Below, in pieces: positions 1,655 to 64,000 of a DNA stretch of 64,000 nucleotides. The translations under genes were made by a program, and so were the position numbers. Source of the DNA: Lonicera japonica (Eukaryota; Streptophyta; Magnoliopsida; Dipsacales; Caprifoliaceae); NCBI GenBank assembly GCA_021464415.1, contig CM038463.1, positions 248,001 to 312,000 on the forward strand, read 5' to 3'. Below the pieces are notes generated by a model. It saw nothing but the letters and a program-made list of their open reading frames with translations, ran no database searches and had not been told where the DNA came from. Each line of letters opens with the position of its first letter. Within the stretch, counting starts at the first letter, position 1.

Positions 1655-2238
1655 TGGGTCAGCAATAAGTGCCCCTGTTATACTAACACGTAGGTCCTCG
1701 AGACGCTGGAATCTCGTTTTGGTCCAAACACGAAACTTGTAGAGGGGAATGAGATGGAACTTTTGGCACTAACGGGGACTCATTTAAGCATTGGATGAGG
1801 AAGTTATGACCTCTCAAAAATGGCCAAAATTAAGGAATCGTAAAATGTCAAAACGTGTGATTATTGCCTTTTATTCAGTATGGGCCAACCGAATCATGAA
1901 ACGATTGTTCAAGAAAACTTAATTATACCGATACAATATGTTGAAAGTGATAGACTAAATAAAATTCACTCGGGTCATGATATGACCATCCGAAATAACA
2001 TTTTGTGAACACCCCAATCCACGACTCTCGTGCGAATACTGATTTTCTTTAAGCATCCTGCATTTAATCATGAATCATCATACATGCAGAAAGACTGATA
2101 GGAAAGACTCCAATTTTGGACGCGTTGGGAGTCTAAGATAACCCTTGTTGCAGCGCCCCGTTAGAAAATTTGGTTTTTTCCGAGAGCTCCTGCGCATTTT
2201 TTTTATGAGCCAGCCGCACCCCCCTGTCGCACGCCCAA

Positions 2239-2478
2239 CCGTACGGCTACCTGCCAACCGTACGGTTGGCACCTCCTAACCGCACCCCCTAGTCGCACGC
2301 CCAACCGTACGACTACCTGCCAACCGTACGGTTGGCACCTCCTAACCGCACCCCCTAGCCGCACGCCCAACCGTACGGCTGGCACACCCCTGTCGCACGC
2401 CCCAGCCGCACCCCATGCGGCTACCCCCTGCGGTTGGCCTCTTTTGGAGCGTTTTTGGCGCAAATGTTGCTATAAATA
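2239..2478 (+). promoter_or_regulatory. CCGTACGG palindrome array plus TATA box, LTR copy 1
   Basis: CCGTACGG cores start at 2239, 2258, 2324 and 2371, with a CCGTACGA variant at 2305. The two cores of a pair are 19 bp apart and the pair repeats every 66 bp. Most are extended to CAACCGTACGGTTGG or end in GGCTGG, and half-sites (AACCGCA, AGCCGCA) fill the gaps. A TATAAATA box follows at 2471-2478, about 35 bp after the last half-site. The layout is that of an enhancer and core promoter in U3. GTAC is the core bound by plant SBP/SPL proteins in general knowledge, but binding here is untested. Confidence 0.8.
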
Positions 2479-3042
2479 GGACCCTTGGGATCCCATTTTG
2501 GGATCATCAACATTGAATAGTATTTTTGGGTAAGTAGGAGCTTTGTCAAAGTCTCTAGAAAATCATTTTTAGAGAAATTCTGTGAGAGAAAGCTCTAGAG
2601 AGAGAAAGCTCTAGAGAGAGAAGAAAGTCAAGGCAAAGTCCTCCTATCTTCTTCAAGCGCAGCAGGTATAACTTTCTACCAAATCCTTAATTTCAGTATT
2701 GCATTTAATTTCACTTTTAATACAGAAAATTAGATAACTTGCAAAGAAGTTCATTTCTTTCAAAACAAATCCTTTCTAAGTTTTACAAGAAATCTAAAAC
2801 CTGTTTTGACACGTTTTCAAAACAAATAAAATACAAAAACAGTTTCCAAAAGAAAGGAACTACGAGACTCTGATTTCATTCTACGAATGAATACGTAGGC
2901 GCTCGCAAAGCTCGAGTCTGATTTCAAAATATTATTTTAAACTGAATTTATCCGGAAAGGACTATTCTGAAAACCATTCGAACTACTTGCACGATATCTA
3001 AAATAGGAATTAGATGCATGATCCATTAAGAGACCGAAAGGG

Positions 3043-3073
3043 CGAATTGGGTGCCTAACACCTTCCCAATTCG
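3043..3073 (+). other. Conserved LTR hairpin (CGAATTGGG / CCCAATTCG)
   Basis: A 9-bp perfect inverted repeat with a 13-nt loop holding the TGCCTAACACCTT strip. It is present in every copy of this LTR: 12916-12946, 50301-50331, 55605-55635 and 58321-58351 are perfect, and the copy near 46713-46743 has one mismatch. It lies downstream of the TATA box, so it would be in the transcript. A role in packaging, dimerisation or 3' processing is a guess. Confidence 0.75.
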
Positions 3074-3358
3074 TAACGTAGTTCCCGAACCCTAACAAAG
3101 TCAATTTTCAAAATAAATCTCTGGTTTCAAACGTATGAAGGATAATTCATTTTTGAATTGTCCTTCGTACGATCTTTTGTTTGTTTTCTCGTAAAACAAA
3201 CTGGCGACTCTACAAAACACGTTTTTCAAATAAAACCGAGAACGAGGACTACTCTTTTCTTCTCTCGGGGTATGGGTCCGAATTCTCACACATTTTCATT
3301 AGAACGAAAAAGTTTCTAAACAAAAGGAAACATGGATAATCACACTAGGGGTATTACA

Positions 3359-11310: not shown

Positions 11311-14160
11311 TGATGGAGACATAAATACAGGATCGTTTGATATTGCGTATAGATTGAACAAAAAAAAAACTTATGCTAAAACCCTTTAAGAATAAAGGGA
11401 TTTCACCTTTGTGGATCATGTAGAGGATCCATATGAGGAGACTAGGGTTTGAAAGTATCAGATTGCGATTTGGTCAGATTTTTTTTTATTCTCGCTGGGC
11501 TGCGAAAATTAATTTTTTTCGCCACCGAAATGACCTCTGATCGTCCTGATTTTCCGGGCTATAATTGTAACTTTGCGTTCCAAACCACATATCCAAAAAT
11601 CAGCCCGATCCAACGGTGGAATCAAAAGTTACGATTGATTTACGACTGCTGTGCCGAAAAACCTAAAGATCTTCTATCGTATTCCTTCCGCCATCAAATC
11701 TTGCACCGAGTGTGGGCTACGGTATCACCAAGATTTTCTCCTCTCTCCATAGAACAAATCCTAACTCATGAGAATTATAGTTATTATGAGAAGAGATTAG
11801 GCCGGCGTATATATAAGGCTACGATAGGGACCTTAAGGAGAAATAAGTGTTTGGGCTTCCTATGGAAAGTTGGAATCCTAATTCCACTATGAATTAGTTC
11901 CTTCCATAAATTATAATTCACACCACTAAAGAATTATAATTGCACTCCCGTCCTTATCTCAAAATTATATTTCGAGCTCCTTATTATTAAATACTTATTA
12001 TTCTCCCCACGTTAAGATTACAGATAACCGTCATTTAAATTAAATTACTGACAATTATATTTAAATGACTTCTTAATCCTTGAGCCTACCACTTAACTTA
12101 TTTGACATGTCGGATTAACATAATCCACCTGCAGGGTTTGACATGATCAAAACTTATAAGCTTCTCAAGGGGCTATCATCAATCCCTATACCGGACGTGG
12201 ATTCCATCAATAATTAATATTCATCATACATATAGTGTCGTCATCCAATTCACGAAGATTATTGATCCATAAATGAATCTCACTCATATTGAGTCAAAAC
12301 AACAAACACTACATATATATGTCTATTAATTATTTCAAGATTAAGAGCATAAGTAATCATAATAACCATGGGATTTTAAATTGTTTTATATAGTCAGTAA
12401 AAAAACAATTAACCCAAACTGGTCCTATTCAATACACACAAAGTGTACTAGCACAACGAGTTAAAACTATACCGTTTTCTGTAGTTAAAATAAACTACTA
12501 AAACTTGTGCTACAATCCTACCGATGGGTGTCCAATTCCATCTAAGACTGTGAACCATTAAACTTATATTCCACAAGAACCGATGATAAGATCTTCTGTG
12601 TGTAAGCTATACTCTACACACCAAATCATCTACTATATGGAATAAAAGACACACATGCACAATATTTAAATAAATAATATAATGCAACCATTGCCCATAC
12701 TGTGAGAATCCGGACCCATACCCCGAGAAGAAGAAAAGAGTCCTCGTTCTCGGTTTTATTTGAAAAACGTGTTTTGTAGAGTCGCCAGTTTGTTTTACGA
12801 GAAAACAAACAAAAGATCGTACGAAGGATAATTCGAAAACGAACTATCTTTCATACGTTTGAAACCAGAGATTCATTTTGAAAATTGACTTTGCTAGGGT
12901 TCAGGAACTACGTTACGAATTGGGAAGGTGTTAGGCACCCAATTCGCCCTTTCGGTCTCTTAATGGATCATGCATCTAATTCTTATTTTAGATATCTTGC
13001 AAGTAGTTCGAATTGTTTTCAGAATAATCCTTTCCGGATAAATTTAGTTTAAAACAATATTTTTGAAATCAGACTCGAGCTTTGCGAGCGCCTACGTATT
13101 CATTCGTAGAATGAAATCAGAGTCTCGTAGTTCCTTTCTTTTGGAAACTGTTTTTGTATTTTTGTTTGTTTTGAAAATGTGTCAAAACGGATTTTAGATT
13201 TCTTGTAAAACTTAGAAAGGATTTGTTTTGAAAGCAGTGAACTTCCTTGCAAGTTATCTAATTTTCTGTATTAAAAGTGAAATTAAATGCGGTACTGAAA
13301 TTAAGGATTTGGTAGAAAGACATACCTGATGCGCCTGAAGAAGAAATAAGAGCCTCGCCTAGTTGCCTTGCTTGCTTCCTTCTCTCTCTCTAAAACTTTC
13401 GCTCTCTAGATTTTCTTTCTCTAAAACTTTCTCTCTCTAGAAATTCTCTTTTAGAATTTCTCTAAAATGACTCTCTAAAGATTTTGACAGAGTTTCTACT
13501 TACTAAAAACACTATTGAGTGTTGATGTCTCCAAATGAGAGCCCAAGGGTCCTATTTATAGCAAAAATCTCGCCAAAAACGCTCCAAAAGAGGCCAACCG
13601 CAAAGGGTAGCCGCAGGGCGTGCGGCTAGGTGCCAACCGTACGGTTGGGGAGCCAACCGTGCGGCTAGGGAAGGTACCAACCGTGCGGCTAGGGAAGGTA
13701 CCAACCGTGCGGTTGGAGCGTGCGGTTGGGGGCTGGGAGGCAACCGTGCGGTTGGGGGCTGGGAGGCAACCGTGCGGTTGGAGCGTGCGGTTGGGGGCTG
13801 CGGCTAGGAGCCAACCGTGTGGTTGGGGGCGTGCGTCTGGCTACCAAAAAACTCAATTTTTCTAACGGGGCGCTGCCCCGCACCCCGCGACCTGACCGGG
13901 CAGGTCGATCCCCGTCCTAGTAAGCGAAGTGGCGACAAGGTTGCGATTAATTCCTAACGCGCTCGAAAATCAGGGTTTTTCCTAACAGTCTCTTGTATGC
14001 ATGACGACTCAAGACTTGATGCAGAATGCTTGTTAGGTTCACGTGAGAGTCGTGGATTGGGGTGTTCACACATACAGATTCTCATTAAAATAGCAAAACC
14101 AAGTTTATAACATATCCAAACCAACAAGAAAATTATGGCTTTTAGTATATCACTCTAACA
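11311..14160 (-). mobile_element. Ty1/copia 3' LTR, minus orientation, split by solo LTR copy 2
   Basis: The left edge TGATGGAGAC and right edge ...ACTCTAACA are the complement of a TGTTAG...CCATCA LTR. Beyond the right edge lies the polypurine tract (complement of AAGTGGGAGAT, 14161-14171), then copia RNase H and RT on the same strand. This is therefore the 3' LTR of the element ending at 19785. A Tat-type solo LTR with duplicated CATAC occupies 12701-14070. Without it the LTR is about 1.47 kb, the same as the plus copy at 9583-11053. Confidence 0.87.
12701..14070 (-). mobile_element. Tat/Ogre-like solo LTR, copy 2
   Basis: It starts TGTGAGAATCCGGACCC and ends GGGGTGTTCACA. It is flanked by a perfect CATAC duplication (12696-12700, 14071-14075) inside the copia LTR. 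The complement TATAAATA lies at 13553-13560. Upstream in element sense (13600-13845) is a dense array in which only one core is CCGTACGG (13637-13644). The others are mostly CCGTGCGG, and there is one CCGTGTGG, so the array has been re-homogenised to a variant. The conserved hairpin lies at 12916-12946. The two arginine/glycine-rich frames over the array are translations of the repeat, not genes. Confidence 0.88.
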
Positions 14161-26851: not shown

Positions 26852-29800
26852 TTGTGTTGTATTGGAATATTAGGGGCATCAACAATTTTGAATCTCAAGA
26901 AGCCCTCAAAAATCACTATTTTAAACACAAGCCAGATTTTCTCTTCATAGCTGAACCCATGGTAAAATTCTCCAAAATTCCCTCTTACCTTTGGGCTTTT
27001 ATTGGAATGCAGCTCATCACTCCCAATCGTAGGCCTAATAAAATACTCAATCTTTGGGTGTTCAAGTCAATTAGCTCAACTAATCCCAATTTGATTTTGG
27101 TTTCTAGCCAACACATCACCTTCTCCTGTATTTTTAACAACGGCACTATCATGATCTCTGCTGTTTATGCTCACAATTGCCACGGAGTCAGAAGAATTCT
27201 ATGGGATGATCTTACTAGCATTCAGGCTAATCTTCAACTCCCTTGGATGGTGATTGGTGATTTTAATTATGTTTTAGGTGCCCACGAGAAAAGAGGAGCT
27301 ACACCTCCTAATGCTGCCACTTGTTCTGAATTCTAAGCCTTATCTGACACCTGTGATCTGGTTCACCTGGACACCATTGGCCCTCTTTATACTGAGTCCA
27401 AAAATGCTTTCACTAATATGGACTCTAGACTGGATAGAACTTTGTGTAGCACTAACTGGTTTGACTTATGGAATTCAATCTCATGCATAGCTCTAAACAG
27501 ATTTGCCTCTGACCATGCCCATTTGGTTTTCTAGTCTGAAATCAACATCATTACTGGACCTAAACCATTTAGATTTATTTATGTCTGCCTGGACCCTCCA
27601 TCACTATTTTGAAGCAATGGTTTCTACTTCATGGAGTAAACCAGTCCATGCCACCTGCCCCATGGTTACCATACAGCTAAAACTCAAGCAGTTAAAGCAT
27701 GACCTGAAGTAATGGAATGCTGAAGTGTTTGGTAATATTCATGATAAAGTCAAAAAAGCTTCTAAGAATCTCCAAAAAAAATCAACTGGACATAGATCAT
27801 TCTGGGCACAATTCTATCATAGACAAGTTAGAAATTGAGGCCCAAGCCAATCACACTCAAGCTTTGCATATTCAATAGGTTTTTTGGAAAAAAAAAAGCC
27901 AGGTTTGAAGCACTGCCTTCTTCCACAGAATTCCTAAACAAAGATGGGCAACTAATAAGCTCACCAGTTTGAAGCATGAGGGCAACACTATTCAAGATCC
28001 AACCTTGCTCAAAAATCACATAATCAACCATTCCACAAGCTCTACAGCTCCCAAAACCCTTCCACTAATCAGGATTTGGTCTCCAAAATCATTCCCCAGT
28101 TGGTTTCTCCTACTGACAATGATTACATATTCTCTATTCCCACCCAAGAAGAGATTAAAAATGTTGTTTTCTCTCTGAACCCCAATTCTGCTCCTGTCCC
28201 TGATGGATTCCCTGGCCTTATCTTTCAAAAATATTGGCACATTGTGGGGGAGCAAGTCTGTAAAGCAATCATCTTATTTTTCAGTCCAACTGGCTTCTCC
28301 CTGGGTTCAATTCAAACTTCATAACCCTCATTCCTAAAACTCCCAATGCATACTCCATTTCCAATTTCAGACCTATTTCCCTTGCTAACTTTATCTTCAA
28401 AGTTATCCCCAAAATTCTAAGTGACAGGATGGCCTTCATTGCTCCTAAACTTATTTTAGATCAGCAAAATGGATTCATTAAAGGCAGACACATCCACAAC
28501 TCCATTGGTGTTACTTCTGAATGCTTCAACATGTTGGATAAGAAGAACTTTGGAGGGAATATTGCTATCAAAATTGATATAGCAAAGGCTTTTGACACTC
28601 TGGATTGGGGCTTTCTTTTGAATGTTCTTGGCACCTTTGGCTTTAGGCCCACCTTTATTGGATAAATCAAATGTATTCTGGAATCAGCTAAGCTCTCTCT
28701 TCTAATTAATGGCACTCCCTGTGGTTACTTCAGTTGTTCTAGGGGAGTCAGACAAGGGGATCCTTTAAACCCAATCCTATTTTGTCTTGCTGAAGATGTT
28801 CTTAGCATATATATTTCCATGCATGTCGAGAATGGATCTCTCAAGCCCATATCCTCTCCCAAATGAACCACTACTCCCACTCATTCTCTATATGCAGATG
28901 ATGTCATGCTATTCTGTAGAGGGGACAAGCCAAATTTGAAGCTAGTTCTTAAAATTCTTGATGACTATGCTTTTGCCTCTGGCCAATTCATTAACAAAAA
29001 CAAAAGCAAAGTCTATTTTGGAAAGGAAGCAATGCACAGAAAAGCAGTCATCACTTCTCTCTTGGGTATGACTGCTGGAAGTACTCCCTTTACTTACCTT
29101 GGAGTTCCTATTTTTAAGGGCAAACCTAAAATCTCTCATCTGAATTTGGTGGCTGACAAAATGAGAACTAAACTTGAAGGTTGGAAAGGCAAAGTGCTCT
29201 CCTTTGCTAACAAAGCTGAGCTAATTATTTATGTTGTTGTCCCCATGGTGCTTCATACTTTTTATATCTACTCTTAGCCAGCCAAACTCATTCACATGGT
29301 TAACACCTGGCTTAGAAACTTTCTGTGGATTGGTGATATTTTCTGTAAAAAACTGGTAACTGCTCCTTGGCACTCAGTTTGTAAGCCTAAGGTGAGTGGT
29401 GGCCTGGGCCTGAGAGATCTGGCTCAACTCAATAAAGTTTCCTTGCTCAAGCACCTTTGGGAGGTTCTTCATTCTTTTAACCAATGGGGAAAATTGCTCA
29501 AAGCCAGGTTCAACATTGTCACTACCAAAGCTTCTACCACTTATAAAACCTCTTCTATTTGGCCTCGTTTTAAAACTGCTCTCCAAGTCATCAATGAGCA
29601 GGCCCTTTGGGTGATTGGCAATGGCAAGAAGGTCGATATTTGGGATGACCTGTTGATCCACTCATCCCCTATTTTATGCCCTCCTCCTCTCCTCAAACAT
29701 AATAGCAAAGTCAGTAGTTTCATTAAAGATAACCATTGGCAGCTTCCTTCTTGGTTTCTCCATCAGTTCCCTCTCCTTTTTAAGGAAATCACTCAAATCC

Positions 29801-43830: not shown

Positions 43831-46510
43831 TGATTGTGTTGTATTGGAACATAAGAGGCATCAACAATGTTGAGTCTCAAAAAGCTCTTAAAACCCATTA
43901 TTTCAAACACAAACCTGATTTGCTGATCATATATGAACCTTTGGTTGAATTCTATAAAATTCCTCATTTCTTCTAGCAATCTATTAGCATGCAAATTTTC
44001 TCTTTTAATGTTAGAAATAGTAAAACTCATAATTTGTGGGAATTTACGTCCCTCAGTTTCCCTCAGCCAGTTACTATATCTGCCTCCTGTTAGCACATCA
44101 CCTTTAATGTTGATTACAATAATAAAACTTTTACGATCTCAGCTGTTTATGCTAATAATGACCATCGAATCAGAAGAATCTTCTGGGAAGACCTTGCCTC
44201 TATCAGAAACCACAATTCTTCTCCTTGGCTTGTTATTGGTGATTTTAACTGTGTTTTGGGAGCCCATGAAAAAAGAGGTGGTAAGCCACCTTTACCTGTC
44301 TGCTGCTTGGATTTTCAAGCTTTCTCTGATGCTTGTGAGCTTGTGCATCTCAATACCATTGGACACCAATTCACATGGTCCAAAAATTCCACCCCAAGCC
44401 TGGAATGTAGACTTAATAGAGCCTTTTGTAGTACTAACTGGTTTGAAAATTGGCAATCAGTTAGTTGCACTACTCTCTATAGATTTACTTATGATCATAC
44501 CCCCCCTCTTGTTTAAATCTGATAATGATATTATAGCTGGTCTTAAACCTTTCAGATTTACCACTGCTTGGACTTTTCACCCCACTTTTGAAGAAGTTGT
44601 GACTAAAGCCTGGTCTAAATATGTGCCTGCCTCTTGTTCTTTGGTCATTATTCAATTGAAGTTGAAACAACTCAAACATGCTCTCAAAATCTGGAACTCA
44701 AAAGTTTTTGGAAATGTGTACTCAAAGGTTCTTCAAGCCAATGACAAACTTCAGCAAATTCAGTTACAAATAGATTTTTCTGGTCATTCTCACTCTCTTG
44801 ACAAGCTTGAATTTGAGGCACAGGTTAACCTTATTCAAGCCATGCACATGCAGGAAATATTTTGGAAAGAAAAAGGCAGGATCAATTAGCTTAAGGATGG
44901 GGATAAAAGCACTGCCTTCTTCCACAAAATTGCTCAACAAAGATGGTCTACCAATAAAATCACTAATTTAAAGCATGAAGGTACCATTCTTAATGAGCCC
45001 ACCCAGCTAAAAAACCACATTGTCAATCACTTCCAAAACCCTTACAGCCACCAAAACCAAACTAATAACCTGAGCTTAATCACCAAAGTCATCCCACATC
45101 AGGTTTTTAATGATGACAATGACTTTTTTTGCAAAATTCCCTCTAAGGATGAAATTAAAAAAACTGTCACAAATTTAAACCCCAACTCAGCCCCTAGACC
45201 TGATGGTTTTCCAGGTTCTTTCTATTAGAAATGTTGGAACATTGTAGGCACTGATGTTTGCAAAGTTGTTCAATTCTTCTTCCAAAGCCATTGGATCCCT
45301 CCTAGATCCAACTCTAACTTTATTGCCCTTATCCCCAAGAGCCCCAATGCTAATACAATCTCCAACTTTAGACATATTACCCTAGCTAATTTCATCTTCA
45401 AAATCATCCCCAAAATTTTGAGTGACAGGCTTGCACTCATTGCTCCAAAGCTCATTTCCTCTCAACAAAATGGTTTTATCAAAGGCAGAAATATTAATAA
45501 TTCCATTGGGGTCACCTCTGAATGTTTCAATATGTTGGATAGGAAAAATTTTGGTGGAAACATTGCTATCAAAATTGACATAGCAAAAGCCTTTGACACT
45601 CTTAATTGGGATTTCTTGCTTAAAGTGCTTACTACTTTTGGTTTCAGCCATATATTCACTAGCTGGATCAAATGCATTCTCAATTCTACTAGGCTCTCAG
45701 TGCTGATCAATGGTACTTCTTGTGGATTTTTCAACTATTCAAGGGGTGTAAGGCAAGGAGACCCCCTTAGCCCTATCCTCTTTTGTCTAGCTGAAGATGT
45801 TCTGAGCAGATACATCTCTTTACATGCCCAAAATGGTTCCCTCAAACCCATCTCCTCTCCCAAAGGCTGTTTAGTCCCTACTCACTCCCTCTATGCTGAT
45901 GATGTCATAATCTTTTATAGAGTGACAAGAACAACCTGACGCTAATTCTCAAAATTCTAGATGATTATGCTAAGGCTTCTGGGCGATTTATTAACTACCA
46001 GAAAAGTAAGGTTTACTTTGGGAAAGAAGCTATGCACAAAAAAGATGAAATCACCTTTATATTGGGGATGGCTACTGGCCACACCCCTTTCTGCTACCTG
46101 GGGATTCCTATCTTCAAGGGAAAATTAAAAGTGAGTCAGTTGAAACCCATATCTGATAAAGTGAGAATTAAACTGGAAGGTTAGAAAGGAAAAATTCTCT
46201 CTTTTGCTGGCAGAGCTGAGCTTATCAAGTCTGTGGCAGTCCATATGCTATTACATTCCTTTATGGTGTATCTGTGGCTTGTCAAGCTCCTCTAAAGGGT
46301 TAATTCTTGGCTTAGAAACTTTCTTTGGTATGGTGATATTGGTGGAAAAAAGCTGGTAACTGTGGCTTGGCACTCTATTTGCAAGCCCAAGCAACATGGA
46401 GGGATAGGGCTGAGAGATATAAAATAAGTTAACAAAGCTAGATTGCTTAAGCATACTTGGGACATCTTCCATGTTAACAATCAATGGAGCAACCTGATCA
46501 AATGTAGGTT
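43830..46510 (+). pseudogene. LINE C ORF2, endonuclease and reverse transcriptase
   Basis: It starts MIVLYWNIRGINNVESQKAL. Endonuclease boxes: VIGDFNCVLGAHEKRGG, TWSKNSTPSLECRLNRAFC, and YRFTYDHTPPLV (SDH changed to YDH). RT is the best preserved of the four LINEs: QQNGFIKGRNINNSIGVTSE, IAIKIDIAKAFDTLNWDFLL, GVRQGDPLSPILFCLAEDVL, and the catalytic HSLYADDVIIFYR with YADD intact (about 45885-45920). It is broken by a frameshift at about 45937 and scattered stops. It continues LGIPIFKGKLKVSQL and WLRNFLWYGDIGGKKLVTVA to CRFNI, where solo LTR copy 3 interrupts it. Confidence 0.87.
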
Positions 46511-47819
46511 CAATATCCGGATCTACGACCCTCGGAATCCTCTCATCTTTTCGTTTTAAAGCAAAACTTGTTTTGTAGAGTCGCTAGTTTTTTTACAGGA
46601 AAACAAACAAAAGATTGTACAAAAGATAATTTGAAAACAAATTATCTTTCATACGTTTGAAACTAGAGATTTATTTGATGATTTGTTTTGCTATAGTTCG
46701 GGAACTACGTTACGAATTGGGAAGGTGTTAGGCACCCAATTTGTCCTTTCGGTCTCTTAATGGATCATGTATTTAATTCCTATTTTAGACATCTTGCAAG
46801 TAGTTTGAATAGTTTTCAAAATAGTCCTTTCCGGATAAATTTAGTTTAAAATTGTATTTTGAAATCAGACTCGAGCTTTGCAAGCGCCTACATATTCATT
46901 CGTAGAATAAAATCAGAGTCTCGTAGTTCCATTTATTTGGAAACTGTTTTTATGTTTTTGTTTTGTTTGAAAACGTGTCAAAACGGATTTTAATTTTCTT
47001 GTAAAACTTAGAAAAGACTAGTTTTGAAAGCAATGAACTTCTTTACAAGTTATCTAATTTTTTGTATTTCAACCTAGTATTTAAATGCGGTATTGAAATT
47101 CAGGAGGGTTGTAGAAAGATGTACCTGATGCACTTGAAGAAGAACGAGGATCGCTTGCTTGCTCCTTTCTCTCTCTAGAATTTTCTCTCTAAAACTTTCT
47201 CGCTCTAGAACTTTCGCTCCCTAAAACTTTCTCACTTTAGAACTTTCGCTTTCTAGACTTTTTCTCCCTAAAACTTTCTCTTTCTAAGACTTTCTCTCTC
47301 TAAATCTTTCTCTCTCTAAAAACTCTTTCTCCCTCTCTAAAAAGACTTTCTAATAATCTTGATAGAGTTTCTCCTCTCTAAAAACTCTATTGAGTGTTGA
47401 TGATCCCAAATGAGACCCCAAGGGTCCTGTTTATAGAGAAATTTCCGCCAAAAATGCTCCAAAAGAGGCCAACTGCAGGGGGTGTGGCTGGGACCTGCAG
47501 TTGGGGCGTGCGGTTGGGGCGTGCGGCTAGGACCTGCGGTTGGGGCCCAGCCGTACGGCTGGCAGGTAGCCGTGCGGTTGGGGGGCTGCGGCTGGCACTT
47601 CAAAAATGCCCAGAAACACCTAAAAAACTCAATTTTTCTAATAGAGCACTGCCCTGCACCCCGCGACCTGACCAGGCAGGTCGATCCCCGTCCTATTAAG
47701 CGAAGTGGTAACATTGGTCAAATCAGACTTATATGCATGATGACTCAAGATCTAATGTGAAATGCTTGTTTTATGAAAAACCAGTGTTCATACTAGAGTC
47801 GTGTATTGGGGTGTTCACA
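46511..47819 (-). mobile_element. Tat/Ogre-like solo LTR, copy 3, damaged start
   Basis: The right end GGGGTGTTCACA is intact at 47819. The left end (TGTGAGAATCCGGACCC in other copies) is degraded to a TCCGGATCTACGACCCTC-like text at about 46515. No target duplication is recoverable. The array (about 47470-47600) keeps one CCGTACGG (47551-47558) and a CCGTGCGG exactly 19 bp away (47570-47577), with many GTGCGG half-sites. The TATA position reads CTATAAAC in complement. The hairpin has one mismatch. LINE C ORF2 resumes at 47820. This is the most decayed of the six copies. Confidence 0.82.
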
Positions 47820-49277
47820 CCTGGCTTTAAATCTTCCCTGCAAACTATTGGTGCTCATGCCAGATGGTCTGTTGGAAATGGGATTAACATCAATATATGG
47901 GAGGACCTATGGCTCCCCTCATCACCTATCCACTGCCCTCCTATTCTCCTTAAAAAGAACAACAAATTCAATAGTTTAATCAATAACAACAGATGGCAAA
48001 TCCCTTCTTGGTTCAAGCTTCAATTCCCTTTTCTTGCTAATGAAATTACCCAAATTTAGCTGCCAACCAACCATCACAATGATCACTTGATTTGCCCATA
48101 TAACTCCAATGGGAATCTTTCTTTTATTGATGCATATTTGTTCTTTAGTAGCAGCACTCCTGTCCAATGGGCCTCTAAACTTTTGTATAGTTTTGTGCCT
48201 CCAAAAGTTTCTTGTCGTACCTAGAGGGTCCTTTAAAACAAAATTCCTACACAAGATAACCTTCAAAAGAGAGGTATGATGTTTGTCCCCAGATGTGAGA
48301 TACGCAAAGGTAATATGGATAATGTAGAACATATTTCCTCAACTGTCCTTATGCCTCATCTCTCTGGCACTGGTTGTTTGATACCTTCTTCATAACCATT
48401 TTTGTCCTTCAAAATCTCCTAACTCTATGGAGATTTATTTGCACAGCCAAACTGAGCCCTCAAATCAACAATCTCTCGATTAGTGGCGGCCTCGTTGTAT
48501 TTCATTTGATATGGGAATCTAGGAACCAGGCCATATTTCACCAAAAAAATCCCATCATATCCAAAACTATTCAGCACTTAAAGGGTTGGGTCATGACTAT
48601 GCCAGCCTTCCTAACTATAGGTTCAAGTAATGTGGATCTTGCCCTCCTCCTCTTCAACCTTTGGAAAGTGGATCTTTACTTCAATCAGATGGTAGCCAGG
48701 TTATTCTGGCCAGGCAACTCTGCCATTCCTACCATCATTGAAGGCTTCCCCAATCAAAAAATCAATAACCAACACAATTGCCACTCCTGCACCTTGCAGC
48801 AACACATCCTCACTTTTAATTGCAGGTCATGTATCTTGTCTTATTTCTATAGTATCAACAAAATTGTTGTTTGGCCTTGGATTTTGAACACCTACACCTA
48901 TAATCTTTCGAGCCTGCTCCATTATAGAGACTCTTCTGCTTGCTACAAGAACCATCAGTGCTGTTACATTTTCTGCTTATTTTCTGCAGAATTACTGTTC
49001 ACTGCCCAGAATTCTCATTGCTCTTATTTATTCCAGTGGGCAGCCTACATGTTTTGGCTTGTTATTAAGTCTAGTTTGGATTTGTATGCTTATATGATGT
49101 ATTGCTTTGAATTGGTTAGTGGACTTATTGTCACATCTTTAAGTCCATTAACCAATTTCCTTTATTTTTCTCTTTTGTTATGTTTTTTGTTTTTAAGCTT
49201 TAGAAATGGCCTTTTTCCGTTATTTATGCTATCTCTCTAATGCCCTAATTTGGGCTTAGAGATTTCATTTAAAAAAA
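47820..49277 (+). pseudogene. LINE C ORF2 tail and 3' UTR, RNase H missing
   Basis: It resumes as PGFKSSLQTIGAHARWSVGN and GININIWEDLWLPSSPIHCP, then WQIPSWFKLQFPFLANEITQ. After stops it gives the linker VVFHLIWESRNQAIFHQKNP (about 48495-48560). The RNase H seen in LINE B does not follow; the sequence passes into a T-rich 3' UTR. A chance open frame of 288 codons (48374-49240) spans linker and UTR. The end TTTGGGCTTAGAGATTTCATTT plus eight A resembles the end of LINE B. Confidence 0.75.
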
Positions 49278-50625
49278 ACCTAAACCCTAAACCCCAAACC
49301 CTCAACCCTCAACCTTAAACTCCAAACCCCTGTGAACACCCCAATCCACGACCCTTGTACAAATACTGGTTTTCTTTTAGCATCCTGCGTTTAATCATAA
49401 GTCATCATGCATGTAGAAAGACTGATAGGAAAGACTCCAATTTCGGACGCGTTGGGAGTCTAAGACAACCTTTGTTGCCTCTTCGCTTACTAGGACAGGG
49501 ATCGACCTGCCAACCGTACGGTTGGCACATGCTAACCGCACCCCCTAGCCGCACGCCCAACCGTACGGCTACCTGCCAGCCGTACGGCTGGCACACCCCT
49601 GTCGCACGCCCCAGCCGCACCCTATGCGGCTACCCCTGCGGTTGGCCTCTTTTGGAGCGTTTTTGGCGGAAATGTTGCTATAAATAGGACTCTTGGGATC
49701 CCATTTTAGTGGCATCGACATTCAATAGTATTTTTAGTAAGTAGGAACCCTGCCAAAGTCTTGAGAAAGTCATTTTTAGAGAAAATTCTGAGAGAGAAGG
49801 CTAGTGAGAGAAAAGGCTAGGGAGAGGAAGTTAGTGAGAGAAAGCTTTAAGAGAGAGAGAGTTCAAGAGAGAGAAGGAAGTCAAGGCAAGGCTCTCCTAT
49901 CTTCTTCAAGCGCAGCAGGTATAACTTTCTACCACTTCTCTAAATTTCGGTATTACATTTCTACATTAATTTTTAATACAGAAAATTAGATAAATTGCAA
50001 AGAAGTTCACTGCTTTCAAATAAATCCTTTCTAAGTTTTACAAGAAAACTAAAATCCGTTTTGACAAGTTTTCAAAACAAATAAAAATACAAAAAAATAG
50101 TTTCCAAAGAAAGGAACTACGAGACTCTGATTTCATTCTACGAATGAATACGTAGGCGCTCGCAAAGCTCGAGTCTGATTTCAAAAATATTGTTTTAAAC
50201 TAAATTTATCCGGAAAGGATTATTCTGAAAACAATTCGAACTACTTGCAAGATATCTAAAATAGGAATTAGATGCATGATCCATTAAGAGACCGAAAGGG
50301 CGAATTGGGTGCCTAACACCTTCCCAATTCGTAACATAGTTCCCGAACCCTAGCAAAGTAAATTTTCAAAATAAAACTCTGGTTTCAAACGTATGAAAGA
50401 TAATTCGTTTTCGAATTGTCCTTCGTACGATCTTTTGTTTGTTTTCTCGTAAAACAAACGGGTGACTCTATAAAACACGTTTTTCAAAACCGAGAACGAG
50501 GACTCTCCTATCTCGGGTCGCGGGTCCGGATTCTCACAACCCCTAAACCCCAAACCCTCAAATCCCAACCCCTAAACCCTAAACCCTAACCCCTAGACCT
50601 TAGACCCAAAACCCTATACCCTAAC
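49271..50625 (+). repeat. Degenerate telomere-like tract, split by solo LTR copy 4
   Basis: After the LINE C A-tail come CCTAAACCCTAAACCCC and degenerate CCCTCAACC-type units to 49330. The tract resumes at 50539 (ACCCCTAAACCCCAAACCC, then CCCTAAACCCTAAACCCTAA) to about 50625. Net about 140 bp. Units drift (CCCTAAA, CCCCAAA, CCCTCAA). LINE D starts right after it. No subtelomeric genes are seen. Confidence 0.85.
49331..50538 (+). mobile_element. Tat/Ogre-like solo LTR, copy 4, inside telomere-like repeat
   Basis: It runs from TGTGAACACCCC to GGATTCTCACA, 1208 bp, with a perfect ACCCC duplication (49326-49330, 50539-50543) made of telomere-like sequence. CCGTACGG cores start at 49514, 49561 and 49580 (47 then 19 bp apart, which together make the 66-bp unit). 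TATAAATA lies at about 49680-49687, followed by an AGAGAG leader, and the hairpin lies at 50301-50331. Confidence 0.9.
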
Positions 50626-55406: not shown

Positions 55407-56581
55407 TGTGAGAATCCGGACCCCCGACCCGAGAAGTCCTCGCTCTCGGTTTTCTTTGAAAACATGTTTTATAGAGTCGCCAGTTTGTTTTACGAGAAAA
55501 CAAACAAAAGATCGTACGAAGGACAATTCGAAAACGAATTATCTTTCATACATTTAAAACCAGAGTTTAAAAATATACTTTGCTAGGGTTTGGGAACTAC
55601 GTTACGAATTGGGAAGGTGTTAGGCACCCAATTCGCCCTTTCGGTCTCTTAATGGATCATGTATCTAATTCCTATTTTAAATATCTTGCAAGTAGTTTGA
55701 ATAGTTTTCAGAATAGTCCTTTCCGGATAAATTTAGTTTAAAATAATATTTTGAAATCAGACTCGAGCTTTGCGAGCGCCTACGTATTCATTCCTAGAAT
55801 GAAATCAGAGTCTCGTAGTTCCACTTGTTTGAAAACTATTTTTGTATTTGGCTTTGTTTTGAAAACGTGTCAAAACGGATTTTAGTTTTCTTGTAATGTT
55901 TAGAAAGGATTTATTTTAGAAAATAATGAACTTCTTTGCAAGTTATCTAATTTCCTGTATTAAAACTGGTATTTAAAATGCAGTATTGAAATTCAGAAAG
56001 GTTGTAGAAAGACGTACCTGATGTGCTTAAAGAAGAAATGAGAACCTTGCCTTGCTTGCCTTGTTTGCCTCCTTCTCTCTCTAGAACTTTCTCTCTCTAA
56101 ACTTTCTCTCACTAACTTTATCTCTCTAGAAATTCTCTAAAAGAAAAGACTCTCTAATAATTTTGGCAGAATTTCACCTTACTAAAAACACTAGTGAGTG
56201 TTGATGCCTCAAATGAGAGCCCAAGGGTCCTATTTATAGAGAAAAAATGCAGAAAAATGGCTTGGGTAGCCGCGCGGCTAGAAGCCAGCCGTACGGCTAG
56301 GGAGGGCTGCGGCTAAGGCGTGTGGCTAGGGTGTGCGGCTCGAAGCCAACCATACGGTTGGGAGCCAACCGTTCAGCTAGGGTATGCGCCAACCGTACGG
56401 TTGGGGGGCGTGCGGCTAGTAAGCGAAGTGGCAACATGGTTGTGGTAGATTTCTGACGCACTCGAAAATCAGGGCTTTTCCTAATGGCCTCTTATATGCA
56501 TGATGACTCAATACTTGATGCGGAATGCTTGTTTGTATGAAAATCAAGTTCACACGTGAGTCGTGGATTGGGGTGTTCACA
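55407..56581 (-). mobile_element. Tat/Ogre-like solo LTR, copy 5
   Basis: TGTGAGAATCCGGACCC to GGGGTGTTCACA, 1175 bp, with a perfect GTATG duplication (55402-55406, 56582-56586). The complement TATAAATA lies at 56231-56238. CCGTACGG cores lie at 56289 and 56393, with decayed cores CCATACGG (56350) and CCGTTCAG (56369) exactly 19 bp apart. The hairpin at 55605-55635 is perfect. Confidence 0.9.
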
Positions 56582-58105: not shown

Positions 58106-59487
58106 TGTGAGAATCCGGACCCATACCCCGAGAAGGAGAAAAAAGTCATCGTTCTCGGTTTTATTTGAAAAACGTGTTTTGTAGAGTCGCCAGTTTGTTT
58201 TACGAGAAAACAAACAAAAGACCGTACGAAGGACAATTCGAAAACGAATTATCTTTCATACGTTTGAAACCAGAGAATTATTTTGAAAATTTACTTTGCT
58301 AGGGTTCGGGAACTACGTTACGAATTGGGAAGGTGTTAGGCACCCAATTCGCCCTTTCGGTCTCTTAATGGATCATGTATCTAATTCCTATTTTAGATAT
58401 CTTTGCAAGTAGTTTGAATGGTTTTCAGAATAGTCCTTTCCGGATAAATTCAGTTTAAAACAATATTTTGAAATCAGACTCGAGCTTTGCGAGCGCCTAC
58501 GTATTCATTCGTAGAATGAAATCAGAGTCTCGTAGTTCCTTTCTTTTGGAAACTGTTTTTGTATTTTTGTTTGTTTTGAAAACGTGTCAAAACGGATTTT
58601 AGTTTTCTTGTAAAACTTAGAAATGATTTATTTGAAAGCAGTGAACTTCTTTGCAAGTTATCTAATTTTCTATATTAAAATTGAAATTAAATGCAGTATT
58701 GAAATTAAGGAGGGTCTTAGAAAATATACCTGATGCGCTTGAAGATAGGAGGACTTTGCCTTGACTTCCTTCTCTCTCTAAAGCTTTCTCTCTCTAGAGC
58801 TTTCTCTCACTAGCCTTCTCTCTCACTAGCCTTCTCTCAGAATTTCTCTAAAAATGACTTTCTAGATACTTTGACAAAGCTCCTTCTTACCCAAAATACT
58901 ATTCAATGTTGATGATCCCAAAATGGGATCCCAAGGGTCCTATTTATAGCAACATTTGCGCCAAAAACGCTCCAAAAGAGGCCAACCGCAGGGGTAGCCG
59001 CATGGGGTGCGGCTGGGGCGTGCGACAGGGGTGTGCCAGCCGTACGGCTGGCAGGTAGCCGTACGGTTGGGCGTGCGGCTAGGGGGTGCGGTTAGAAGGT
59101 GCCAACCGTACGGTTGGCCGGTAGCCGTACGGTTGGGCGTGCGACAGGGGGGTGCGGCTAGGAGGTGCCAACCGTACGGTTGGCAGATAGCCGTACGGTT
59201 GGTCGTGCGACAGGGGGGTGCGGCTGGCTCATAAAAATGTGCAGGAGCGCTCGGAAAAAACCAAATTTTCTAACGGGGCGCTGCCCCGCACCCCGCGACC
59301 TGACCGGGCAGGTCGATCCCCGTCCTAGTAAGCGAAGAGGCAACAAGGGTTATCTTAGACTCCCAACGCGTCCAAAATTGGAGTCTTTCCTATCAGTCTT
59401 TCTACATGTATGATGATTCATGATTAAATGCAGGATGCTTAAAGAAAATCAGTATTCGCACGAGAGTCGTGGATTGGGGTGTTCACA
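58106..59487 (-). mobile_element. Tat/Ogre-like LTR, copy 6, probable 3' LTR of an element to the right
   Basis: TGTGAGAATCCGGACCC to GGGGTGTTCACA, 1382 bp, the best-preserved copy. Unlike copies 1, 2, 4 and 5 it has no target duplication: CCATG lies left and GACCC right. On the right, in element sense just before the LTR, is a purine-rich strip (complement of GACCCTCTCGTCCCGGGATT). This fits a polypurine tract and an internal region lying at 59488 onward. The TATA box is the complement at 58941-58948, and the hairpin is at 58321-58351. Confidence 0.8.
58981..59230 (-). promoter_or_regulatory. Best-preserved CCGTACGG array (six cores), LTR copy 6
   Basis: Perfect CCGTACGG cores start at 59040, 59059, 59106, 59125, 59172 and 59191. 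Cores in a pair are 19 bp apart and pairs are exactly 66 bp apart. Flanks are AACCGTACGGTTGG or AGCCGTACGGTTGG/CTGG. Half-sites GTGCGGCT and GTGCGACA lie between. The TATA box lies on the left, downstream in element sense. Confidence 0.85.
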
Positions 59488-60039
59488 GACCCTCTCGTCC
59501 CGGGATTCTTGTCCCCAAGAATACTGGGATGATAAGAAGACAACGATTCACGACTCTCGGGTGAATCAAAGTATACCCTTTCTGGCATGCGGATTTTTTT
59601 GTGCTTCAGGTGATGCAACCCAAAAATTGCCCCTTTCCTTTTGGCCGGGCGACACGATACATCAACCTTTTCTTCCATCTACCCTCGGTAATAGATTACC
59701 CTCAGTGGCACACCACCCTCAGTGTGTAGGACTACACGAGGGGGCTTGGCATTTTACCGAATCCAAATGATTGTGGTGGAAGATGAGTGTTCTTGAAGCT
59801 TTCCCATTTCTTAGGGAGAAGAAGAAGAAAGACCTTAGTCTTGTGATATATCCTTTTGTGGGGTGTGGTGCTAGAAGAGATTTTTATCATTGGAGAAAGT
59901 GAGTTAGATTCCTTTCGTAGGGAATGCGCGAAGAATTCTAATTTTTCGAAAAAAGGATTCCCATCATGGGGAATGTGTGGATAAAGATTATTCCCTTCTT
60001 GGGGAATGCGCGGTAAAGGTTATTTCCCTTCGTGGGGAA

Positions 60040-60820
60040 AGGGGATCGGAGAAAATTCCCATCGTGGGGAATGCGAAGAATTCCTATCTTTTCAGGAATT
60101 CGGAAAATTCCCTTCTTGGGGAACACATGGAGTCATTATTTCCCTTCTTGGGGAAAGTGGTTTCGGAGAAATTCCCATCTTGGGGAATGCGAAGAATTCC
60201 TATCTTTTCAGGAATTCGAAAAAATTCCCTTCTTGGGGAACACGTGGAGTCGTTATTTCCCTTCTTGGGGAAAGGGGTTTCGGAGAAATTCCCATCTTGG
60301 GGAATGCGAAGAATTCCTATCTTTTCAGGAATTCGAAAAAATTCCCTTCTTGGGGAACACGTGGAGTCGTTATTTCCCTTCTTGGGGAAAGGGGTTTCGG
60401 AGAAATTCCCATCTTGGGGAATGCGAAGAATTCCTATCTTTTCAGGAATTCGAAAAAATTCCCTTCTTGGGGAACACGTGGAGTCGTTATTTCCCTTCTT
60501 GGGGAAAGGGGTTTCGGAGAAATTCCCATCTTGGGGAATGCGAAGAATTCCTATCTTTTCAGGAATTCGAAAAAATTCCCTTCTTGGGGAACACGTGGAG
60601 TCGTTATTTCCCTTCTTGGGGAAAGGGGTTTCGGAGAAATTCCCATCTTGGGGAATGCGAAGAATTCCTATCTTTTCAGGAATTCGAAAAAATTCCCTTC
60701 TTGGGGAACACGTGGAGTCGTTATTTCCCTTCTTGGGGAAAGGGGTTTCGGAGAAATTCCCATCTTGGGGAATGCGAAGAATTCCTATCTTTTCAGGAAT
60801 TCGAAAAAATTCCCTTCTAC
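60040..60820. repeat. 117-bp minisatellite made of small hairpins
   Basis: The strip GTGGAGTCGTT recurs at 60244, 60361, 60478, 60595 and 60712, exactly 117 bp apart, with a diverged unit at 60127. Each unit contains TTCCCTTCTTGGGGAA twice, TTCCCATCTTGGGGAA once (5-bp stems) and GAATTCCTATCTTTTCAGGAATTC-type pairing (8-bp stem). Looser single units extend left to about 59940. Because 117 is divisible by 3, all three plus frames stay open for 275-320 codons; no protein is implied. Confidence 0.93.
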
Positions 60821-61622
60821 TGTCTCGTTGCCATGGTTACTCAGACATTGTTTTGTTGATTTTTCCAAGAATGATATGTTAGGGAGAACTGCTTGCAAGT
60901 GGGAGTGGTTTTGTTTTTCATTCCTTTCTACCCTCAGTTTTGACCTTTATTGGGAATCGGACTTCTGAATCAACTTTTTTTTGTAGCAACTTTCGGACCG
61001 CTGTGCATGGATTTTTGGGATTTGGCATCTCTCTACCCTCAGTTTTCTTCTCTTTGGTCCTGGGGATGGAAATTCGTCTGGGATTCTCAATAGCCTTCAA
61101 GCTACCCTCTGATTTTTTTCACAGGGAAGATGCTGGTCCTGTATCGTTTTCTGTTTTTCGATACCCTTATTGCTCCCTCTTTTGATTATCCGGCCTTATA
61201 TATTTTCTGGGCTTTCGGATTTTCCTTGCTTTTTCTTTCGCGGATTTTTCCAAAACAGGAGCCTTACTCACCTAAGATGTAGCCCTCCGCCTTTTGGCAC
61301 AGCTGTCACTCTTAGTGTGGCTCTCCCTGTCGATTTTCGTCATTTCTGTTTATCTCACTTTTCCCTCTCTTGGACCAACGGGATTTTCCCTTTTCTACTA
61401 TTTCAATTTTTTCTGGTACCCGATTCTTCTTTTACACCTTCCCTGTTTATTTAATCAGATTCGAGCCTTCCGGACAATGGATCCATCCTATTGAATTTCG
61501 GTTCCTCCACAGACTTTAGAGTGTCAAACTTCGGGCATTGATTAGTCATCTCGTGCGTGTGTGTGAGTCTTGGTCCTCTTGTGTCTTGGGAAGAGTTGAT
61601 TCAGAGTCTACCCCCACCCCCC

Positions 61623-61623
<1 letters not shown>

Positions 61624-61669
<46 letters not shown>
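61624..61669. repeat. 46-base poly-T run
   Basis: An uninterrupted T run from 61624 to 61669, about 20 bp before the PMD promoter array. It reads as poly-A on the minus strand, the sense strand of the LTR element. Confidence 0.95.
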
Positions 61670-61670
<1 letters not shown>

Positions 61671-61689
61671 GTCAAACTGGTCAAAAATG

Positions 61690-61865
61690 AGGGTAGCCGC
61701 ACGGGATAGCCGCAGGGCGTGCGGTTGGGGGTAGCCGCACGGGGTAGCCGCACGAGGTAGCCGCAGGGTTTGACCCCCCAGCCGTACGGCTGGCAGCCAA
61801 CCGCACGGTTGGGGGCTAGCCGTACGGTTGGCTAGCCTGCGGCTGGCCCCTATGATCTATAAATA
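61690..61865 (+). promoter_or_regulatory. PMD gene promoter: CCGTACGG palindromes plus TATA box
   Basis: Half-sites TAGCCGCACGGG / TAGCCGCAGGG repeat from 61691. Then the full cores CCGTACGG (61782), CCGCACGG (61801) and CCGTACGG (61820) follow at exactly 19-bp spacing, and CCTGCGG at 61836. TATAAATA lies at 61858-61865 and the predicted ATG at 61976. Palindrome, spacing and TATA box are the same as in the Tat LTR U3, yet no LTR ends are present here and the strand is opposite to LTR copy 6. Confidence 0.82.
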
Positions 61866-61975: not shown

Positions 61976-64000
61976 ATGGCATTTGCGAGACTACTTTCGA
62001 TCTTTGTGTACATGATGATGGGAGGCCCACCAGAAGGAGGGGAGGTGCCGGAGCTACTCCCGGGGGACGAGGTGGAGTCGATCACCGCGATGATGGATGG
62101 GCGCCTGATCTGCGCGCCACATCATGACGACTGGGAGGGTGTGGCCTGGGAGGGGCCACTGGGGGCAGACGGATCGCTACAGCGGGCGATGTACCGGGAC
62201 GTGCCCTTGATCTCGCCGGGAGAGGGGCGAGAGTGGCTGTTGTTGGAGCCTGCGGCACACGAGATCCGCCGCCGGACTAGGGTATGCTCTAATTATTTCA
62301 AATTATGTGATTTTTTGAAAATGATGCAAATGAAGAGATATGCATGAAAGGCGATAGATTTAATAATTACTTGCCATAATAGATATATACTCAACATAAT
62401 TACTTGCCATAATAGATATATACTCAACATTATTTATTTTTTGAAAAAAGTTTGTTAGTGAGCCTTGTAAAAATTGGTGATGTAACAGAGGATCGGACGT
62501 TGCCGTGGCATCACGCGTGCTGCGCCTGAGCTTCGAGATCAGCTTCCGCCGCTGGTGAGAGCATACTTGAGTGCGACCCCATTCGGACGATTTATCGAGG
62601 TGCTGCCAGGCGGAGAGTTCCAGCGATCAGTGAGCCTTCCGACGGTGTTAGGGGAGAGATGGTGGGACACGACGCACACATTCCACTGGAGTTGGGGGGA
62701 GATGACGTTGACACCGGAGGATGTGTTCGTGCTGACAGGGCTGCCTTTCGGGGGGGAGGCTCTAGTGCCTAACCCCCGCGTACGCATTACTCTAGATGGT
62801 ATGGGAGCGGCACTAGGATGGAGGCCTAGCAGGATTGTGGCGGATGGGATACCCCACACGGCGATGGTGCAGCATATCGAGGCCGAGAGTGGGAGGTTTG
62901 GCGATGGTCCGATGACACGCCAGGAGGTGCGGCAGCTATCCCGATGCTTTCTGCTGCTCGTGTTGCATGATTTCTTCTATGCGCGGGGTGGCGACAACCT
63001 ACGGTTATGGTGGCTGCCTTATCTGCGGTTCTTCGACCAGTTGTACACTTTTGCCTGGGGAGGATACGTACTGGCGGTGCTGTATGAGTCGATGGACCTA
63101 GTGTGTCGTCACATGGAGCTGAACCACCGCGGGTTGGTCACGCTTTGGGAGGTAAGTTATTTAAAAATTCATTTATCTTTTTTCGAGGAAAGCATGTGAT
63201 TATTATATAAAAACCGACGGTTTTATTAATTGTGGTAATTTGTGACAGATGTGGTTTATTGCGCATACCCACCAGGGTATTGGTCAGATCCACCTGCACC
63301 CGACTTTCGCAGATGAGTTCCCGCTTTTCCGACGATACTACAGCGGGAACATAGTTGGGGTGTATCGATATCTGACCCCGGACGTCAGTGCAGGCGACGT
63401 TTCTGGGCTACAGCTTGACCAGGTATGAAATTAAATTATTGAAATTTAAATTATTTCTGAAAAAGAACAGTTAAGTTATGCTTGGTGTATGTTTGACGTG
63501 GCAGGTTCAGTGGAGCCCATGGCCGGCATACGTGACGCAGCAGTGGGGGTATGCGGATGCGTTGGCTGCGGCGCGTTCGAGGCGTTTATTCGTGCATGAG
63601 TATGGCGCGGCGTTTTACCTGGGGGAGCGCGTGGTGCGGCAGCATACTCCTGGGTTGGGATTCCGGATTCCGGCATGGCCCCCAGTGGCGATGAGGCGGC
63701 CGGTCATGCTGACTGCGGAGGAGAGGGCTCTGTTCCTGGGAGGCGTACCGATGGAGGGTCTGTTGGTGGAGGGGGAGTACGGGACGTTTGCGCACCGGTA
63801 CCTGATGAGGGAGATGAAGGGGGTGCGAGGCAGGGTGATATATGCGAGGTATGCGGCCCTCGGGGGAGACCCGATGTATATCCGGGGACAGTTGTACATC
63901 TCGCAGCGGGTCCCACAGCAGCCCGCACCAGCGCCGAACCGGAGGGCCAAGGGGATTGCAGATTCGGATGACGAGGATCCGCATGGCGAGAGGGACGTGG
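61976..64000 (+). CDS. Plant mobile domain (PMD / MAIN-like) protein, four exons, open at window end
   Basis: Exons 61976-62281, 62489-63151, 63249-63422 and 63505 to beyond 64000. All introns are GT-AG, phase 0 and AT-rich (207, 97 and 82 bp). Together they give 546 codons with no stop or frameshift, in contrast to every other coding stretch here. The ATG follows GAGCG and precedes G, and lies 111 bp after a TATA box. PMD signatures: HTFHWSWGEMTLTPEDVFVL and TGLPFGGE (residues about 170-200), RLWWLPYLRFFDQLYTFAWG and GYVLAVLYES, WFIAHTHQGI, VQWSPWPAYV. Exons are GC-rich. PMD proteins include MAIN/MAIL silencing factors and domains carried by Mutator-like and Ty3/gypsy elements. Placement next to a Tat 3' LTR on the opposite strand suggests an antisense extra ORF of that element; a host MAIL-type gene is the alternative. 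No catalytic function can be assigned. Confidence 0.85.
62365..62430 (+). repeat. 33-bp tandem duplication in PMD intron 1
   Basis: AATTACTTGCCATAATAGAT and the following TATACTCAACAT strip occur twice, at 62365 and 62398, within the first intron. Recent, near-perfect. Confidence 0.85.

Follow-up and report, generated by a model that had tools for sequence, protein, structure and literature searches.

The 64-kb stretch of Lonicera japonica DNA analysed here (the window, in whose coordinates all unlabelled positions are given) ends inside an 18.7-kb long terminal repeat (LTR) retrotransposon that lies on the minus strand. One promoter module, an array of palindromic cores followed by a TATA box, recurs in three transcription units of the element: the sense unit, in the U3 region of the LTR, and two antisense genes, which encode a PMD protein and a DUF7745 protein. 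The module is real and far beyond chance, and it is broader than was seen in a first-pass annotation of the window, which had placed one switch before the sense transcript and the PMD gene. We refer to the lineage of the window element, whose palindrome is CCGTACGG, as lineage A, and to a sister lineage with the palindrome GTCGCGCGAC as lineage B. As a matter of anatomy the shared switch is well supported. The shared array points to a private switch that may control the whole element; from sequence we infer that the sites bind a protein, regulate transcription and are read by a factor that the element itself encodes.

The window holds 19 CCGTACGG sites, compared with a mean of 0.08 and a maximum of 1 in 100 dinucleotide shuffles. 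By LTR coordinates all of them fall in LTR copies 1-6 (4, 1, 1, 3, 2 and 6 sites, respectively) or in the PMD promoter (2 sites), in agreement with the earlier description of a palindrome common to six LTRs and an antisense PMD promoter. The TATA motif TATAAATA is by itself mildly enriched, with 13 occurrences against 5.6 expected and no shuffle among 100 reaching 13. The features concerned are as follows.

2004-3290, plus strand: LTR copy 1, solo; target duplication CATTT; perfect cores at 2239, 2258, 2324 and 2371; TATAAATA at 2471.
12701-14070, minus strand: LTR copy 2, solo; target duplication GTATG; one perfect core at 13637 plus CCGTGCGG variants; TATAAATA at 13553.
46543-47713, minus strand: LTR copy 3, ends decayed; cores at 47551 and 47570 (CCGTGCGG), 19 bp apart.
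49331-50538, plus strand: LTR copy 4, solo; target duplication ACCCC; cores at 49514, 49561 and 49580; TATAAATA at 49679.
55407-56581, minus strand: LTR copy 5, solo; target duplication CATAC; cores at 56270 (CCGCGCGG), 56289 and 56393; TATAAATA at 56231.
58106-59487, minus strand: LTR copy 6, the 3' LTR of the full element; target duplication CCATG.
58941-58948, minus strand: TATAAATA of the copy-6 LTR.
59033-59225, minus strand: palindrome array in the U3 of copy 6; three pairs of cores on a 66-bp repeat, with a 19-bp step within each pair.
59990-60818, no strand assigned: tandem repeat with a 117-bp unit, 7.1 copies and 97% matches, separating the 3' LTR from the PMD gene.
61691-61837, plus strand: PMD promoter array; 13-bp half-site repeats at 61691-61765, then cores at 61782, 61801 (CCGCACGG) and 61820 at 19-bp steps.
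61858-61865, plus strand: TATAAATA of the antisense PMD gene.
61976-64000, plus strand: antisense PMD gene; predicted exons 61976-62281, 62489-63151, 63249-63422 and 63505 onward, running past the window end.

The 5-bp target duplications of solo copies 1, 2, 4 and 5 were read by eye. A 19-bp step between perfect cores is present in copies 1, 4 and 6, and when one-base core variants are allowed there are nine such steps: three in copy 6, two in the PMD promoter and a single one in each of copies 1, 3, 4 and 5. The step previously described for copies 1, 3, 4 and 5 holds with perfect cores in copies 1 and 4, and needs one variant core in copies 3 and 5 (47551/47570 and 56270/56289). Among the cores scanned in copy 2 there is no 19-bp step, and no exact TATAAATA was found in copy 3. 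The three copy-6 pairs reported earlier (59040/59059, 59106/59125 and 59172/59191) are exact, and this LTR has its own TATA box on the minus strand, as had been stated. At the PMD gene, where three palindromes had been placed before TATAAATA, the positions and the step are correct, with the middle core a variant, so that the promoter has two perfect palindromes and one variant; two TATAAATA motifs (61858 and 61920) lie upstream of the predicted ATG at 61976. This array lies outside any LTR, as first thought, its similarity to the LTRs being limited to the array and the stretch directly adjoining it. An origin of the PMD promoter as an inverted LTR fragment was rejected, since the similarity reaches no further than this and the better-matching orientation varies among the LTR copies.

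The module is also found at the second antisense gene, which lies outside the window. This plus-strand gene, which encodes 411 residues, starts at window-coordinate 65898 and its product matches DUF7745 (PF24924, 3.3e-10), with a weaker PMD match below the cut-off. Its promoter has cores at 65733, 65752 (CCGCACGG), 65772 and 65791 (CCGTGCGG), then TATAAATA at 65818. Forty DUF7745 promoters were fetched from 118 scored matches, many near-identical scores being passed over; 38 of the 40 contain CCGTACGG, 39 contain CCGYRCGG and none contains GTCGYRCGAC. The last core ends 18-19 bp before the TATA box in 34 of the 39 promoters measured.

Genome-wide counts, made over the 886-Mb genome containing the window with the reversed pattern as control, gave 1503 places with pairs of CCGTACGG cores separated by 9-13 bp, against 1 for the reversed pattern, and 247+257 (504) places at which CCGTACGG is followed by CTATAAATA within 15-45 bp, against 0+1 (1). 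Forty-seven pair places, among the first 50 matches listed of the 1503, were examined and comprised 40 family LTRs, 2 PMD promoters, 4 DUF7745 promoters and 1 other locus. The LTR count includes one place (L035) where the pair lies directly against the aligned part of a family LTR. A search for arrays near unrelated genes, suggested in the first-pass annotation and run here in part, thus placed 46 of 47 in or against family LTRs or at PMD or DUF7745 promoters, and in this sample the module is almost confined to one element family. The other locus (L020, C1:1166600-1171700), with five CCGTACGG cores in about 800 bp and AATGG/GATT-like letters after the cores, has no match to the family LTRs or the antisense genes and is apparently an unrelated use of the palindrome. 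Fifty CCGTACGG-CTATAAATA places on C1, among the matches listed, divided by sequence into 30 PMD-like, 19 DUF7745-like and 1 ambiguous, and seven same-strand PMD-to-DUF7745 promoter pairs on C1 are 3919-3974 bp apart.

In lineage B the palindrome is replaced as a set. LTRs starting with TGTAGACACCCCGATCC carry arrays of GTCGCGCGAC palindromes before TATAAATA, and GTCGCGCGAC, which lacks GTAC, is present in the LTR U3 and in both the PMD and the DUF7745 promoters of this lineage. Pairs of the form GTCGCGCGACA occur at 14045 places genome-wide, against 0 for the reversed pattern. Two loci, a DUF7745 relative (L030; pieces 36-48% identical) and a PMD relative (L034; pieces 38-45%), have GTCGCGCGAC-type palindromes before the TATA box and no CCGTACGG. 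The layout is exemplified by an element on C1, with LTR at 4188857, PMD at 4190598, DUF7745 at 4196020 and LTR at 4206446. Behind its arrays stand a PMD start 43% identical over 74 residues and a DUF7745 gene 45% identical over 258 residues, with a stop codon in this copy, and a piece of its pol is 67% identical over 666 residues; the antisense proteins are therefore less alike between the lineages than pol. Twenty LTRs were chosen among the first 100 of 3213+3207 LTR-start places (control 2+2). The 12 with a B-type start all contain GTCGCGCGAC and none contains CCGYRCGG (2 of the 12 adjoin places already among the GTCGCGCGACA pairs), while of the eight with an A-type start four contain CCGTACGG, five CCGYRCGG and none GTCGYRCGAC, so that the palindromes are unmixed in this sample. 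Core spacing also differs, 27 of 28 distinct spacers in lineage B giving steps of 20-23 or 30-34 bp and 33 of 77 in lineage A giving the 19-bp step; a helical phasing of the cores is suggestive only, because the copies are related.

Two further DUF7745 relatives (L068 and L093) have a CCGTACTG/GCCGCATGG-like array with flanks unlike those of lineage A. They suggested a third lineage with a TGCCGTACGG array, but this was rejected, as no perfect pairs were found genome-wide; L068 and L093 may be decayed relatives.

The element that carries the module was delimited by the partner of copy 6, its 5' LTR, which lies beyond the window at window-coordinates 75448-76830 and is 99.93% identical, differing by one gap and no mismatch; CCATG adjoins the outer end of each of the two LTRs. 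A single open frame of 2156 codons on the minus strand encodes gag, reverse transcriptase (RT), RNase H, a second RNase H and integrase (gag at codons 108-199, RT_RNaseH 1430-1531, RVT_3 1583-1701, H2C2 1797-1852 and rve 1871-1967). From these sequence features the element is classed as Ogre/Retand-type. An extra RNase H, placed after RNase H and before integrase, is the mark of the Ogre/Retand (Tat) group in a published survey (PMC6317226). The succession of domains is in keeping with the elements described there, as are the PMD gene in antisense and the 117-bp tandem repeat close to the 3' LTR. The Ogre lineage in particular resembles it in being large, with tandem repeats and the extra RNase H, and in having PMD in an extra open reading frame (ORF), here antisense, as in 57% of Ogre elements (PMC6317226). 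The survey gives Ogre two ORFs, gag-pro and RT-RNase H-integrase, whereas gag to integrase is a single frame here, and the element is therefore called Ogre/Retand-type and not filed as Ogre. The 117-bp repeat has long open frames in several frames, and is like the reported hypervariable 3' region of such elements.

The PMD gene matches PF10536 (3e-23). A possible last exon, predicted just outside the window (L016 880-1210), would add a KRPR-containing tail that we take to resemble a nuclear localisation signal. The predicted structure of PMD exon 2 had a mean pLDDT of 38 and was not used. Relatives of the PMD protein beyond the genome of the window were absent from the protein collection searched, and none of the element was confirmed in the viral contigs searched. 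One survey ranks PMD first in frequency among the non-canonical domains of Gypsy elements (PMC9289625). The host PMD proteins MAIN and MAIL1 act in the silencing of transposable elements, and genes dependent on them are enriched for a promoter motif (PMC7156037).

Both antisense genes are, by their substitution patterns, under purifying selection. Between the window element and an element near C1:9.11 Mb, the ratio of nonsynonymous to synonymous substitution (dN/dS) is 0.065 for DUF7745 (dS 0.96), 0.058 for PMD exon 1 and 0.037 for PMD exon 2. In the same pair the 75-bp PMD array is identical at 71 of 75 positions, whereas four-fold sites are identical at 32/50 and 52/107 and aligned intron bases at 144/190.

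Taken together, these features suggest that the palindrome array is an operator or enhancer common to three promoters, the sense one in the LTR and those of PMD and DUF7745, and that it is read by a lineage-matched dimeric factor, for which one of the element's own antisense proteins is the leading candidate; to this reading as a whole we give an even chance. The palindromic form of the cores suggests a dimeric reader and the fixed gap between core and TATA box suggests a promoter function, while the reader should match its lineage because each lineage has its own palindrome, replaced in all three promoters. Such a DNA-binding reader, placed as a dimer on the palindromes beside the TATA box, would control all three transcription units together. 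If it were one of the element's own antisense proteins, an autoregulatory or anti-silencing loop would result. An element-encoded reader is a bold proposal, though one open to test; the antisense proteins are candidates because they are under purifying selection and are less alike between the lineages than pol. The cores CCGTACGG and GTCGCGCGAC share the scheme CGYRCG and differ in their flanks, which could reflect a shift of specificity within one family of readers. More tentatively, and with somewhat less than even confidence, we envisage a self-contained circuit in which DUF7745 or PMD would bind the lineage-private palindrome in the LTR and in both antisense promoters, protein and palindrome changing together and so insulating sister lineages; this would be the LTR-retrotransposon counterpart of VANC.

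Several observations weigh against a protein-read operator private to each lineage. Between the two elements compared, identity is also about 90% in the aligned sequence that lies upstream beyond the PMD array, and at DUF7745 the array (79/92) shows no better conservation than the stretch before it (126/148). Across the 40 aligned DUF7745 promoters the cores (0.83) exceed the spacers (0.73) but fall below the sequence outside the array (0.88). Among 20 more distant relatives, taken from 42 matches, CCGTACGG was found in only 5 and CCGYRCGG in 12, the remainder looking decayed or without an array. Neither antisense protein has the basic charge that would be a sign of DNA binding, the isoelectric points being 6.2 for PMD (up to the window end) and 6.5 for DUF7745. 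The separation of the lineages is not absolute, as copy 6 carries one B-like GTCGTGCGAC at 59202, and the clear lineages seen are two, in one genome.

It is possible, though in our judgement unlikely, that host transcription factors read the palindromes, one factor having been recruited per lineage for all promoters, for example SPL in lineage A, reading CCGTACGG, and a second factor in lineage B that reads GTCGCGCGAC. The palindrome CCGTACGG includes GTAC, the core of SBP/SPL sites, and an SPL reader is possible for lineage A alone. The first-pass annotation had offered a GTAC-reading SBP/SPL factor for the switch, and as a general reader such a factor fails, because lineage B has the same layout with GTAC-free GTCGCGCGAC in all three promoters. 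Plant LTRs with host-responsive sites are known, such as the Tnt1 BII boxes, which bind defence-induced factors (PMC3316501). Host reading would, however, require the sites to have been replaced in three promoters per lineage to suit a different factor.

It seems improbable that the arrays are repeats which recombination or template switching spread between the U3 and antisense promoters and which have no regulatory role in common. Array length and unit number do vary widely, and tandem repeats are common in such elements (PMC11963269, PMC6317226). The lineage A promoters of the window element remain similar after core masking, so that segments of the array may have been copied there, a further point against the operator reading. 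Lineage B offers less room for this explanation: in the single element examined there, little beyond the cores is shared, and comparisons among its three promoters after masking of the cores gave P values of 0.39, 0.07 and 0.18 against 300 composition shuffles. Recent copying of whole arrays is hard to invoke in lineage B because these masked promoters are not clearly more alike than the shuffles, although with a 4-base wider mask (0.22, 0.21 and 0.04) one of the six comparisons fell at 0.04. Repeat spread also sits poorly with the 18-19 bp gap before the TATA box in most DUF7745 promoters, and with a PMD array better conserved than four-fold sites. That the CpG-rich palindromes are host silencing marks, through methylation or small RNAs, and not activator sites, we regard as very improbable: tandem repeats can attract silencing (PMC5735166), yet a silenced element would be expected to lose such sites, and the palindromes precede the TATA box throughout two large lineages.

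Two other observations concern the surroundings of these elements in the window. Telomere-like AAACCCT / CCCTAAA repeats lie at 49275-49329 and 50541-50624, on either side of solo copy 4, which therefore apparently inserted into an interstitial telomere-like array. Two 1.5-kb stretches (27908-29391 and 44907-46391) are 72% identical, and their ORF-bearing surroundings look non-LTR retrotransposon-like by eye.

The operator reading has its closest parallel in VANC of the Arabidopsis VANDAL transposons, for which binding of protein to motif and demethylation are proven (PMC5735166). As in that system, the element encodes extra proteins and has tandem motif arrays in non-coding regions that differ between related elements; VANDALs, however, are DNA transposons, whereas here the palindromes stand before TATA boxes in an LTR retrotransposon and the reader is a candidate. 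TRP28, an antisense protein of Retand elements, has been proposed to bind DNA and to have a regulatory role (PMC11963269). Retand likewise has antisense genes between pol and the 3' LTR and tandem repeats in that region, but the genes here are PMD and DUF7745, and the available text of that report describes no shared promoter motif. The Tnt1 BII boxes, which bind protein, are also U3 boxes of an LTR promoter; they serve the LTR promoter and bind host factors, whereas the present motif recurs in two internal antisense promoters. In the open-licence literature searched we found no earlier description of a motif shared by LTR and antisense promoters. Ogre and Retand elements often carry antisense genes, whose function the literature leaves open (PMC6317226, PMC11963269). 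With one palindrome common to the LTR and the antisense promoters, and exchanged in all of them together in a sister lineage, this function can be tested directly. If the antisense proteins do read the palindrome of their own lineage, LTR retrotransposons, like VANDAL DNA transposons, would encode their own system of regulation or anti-silencing.

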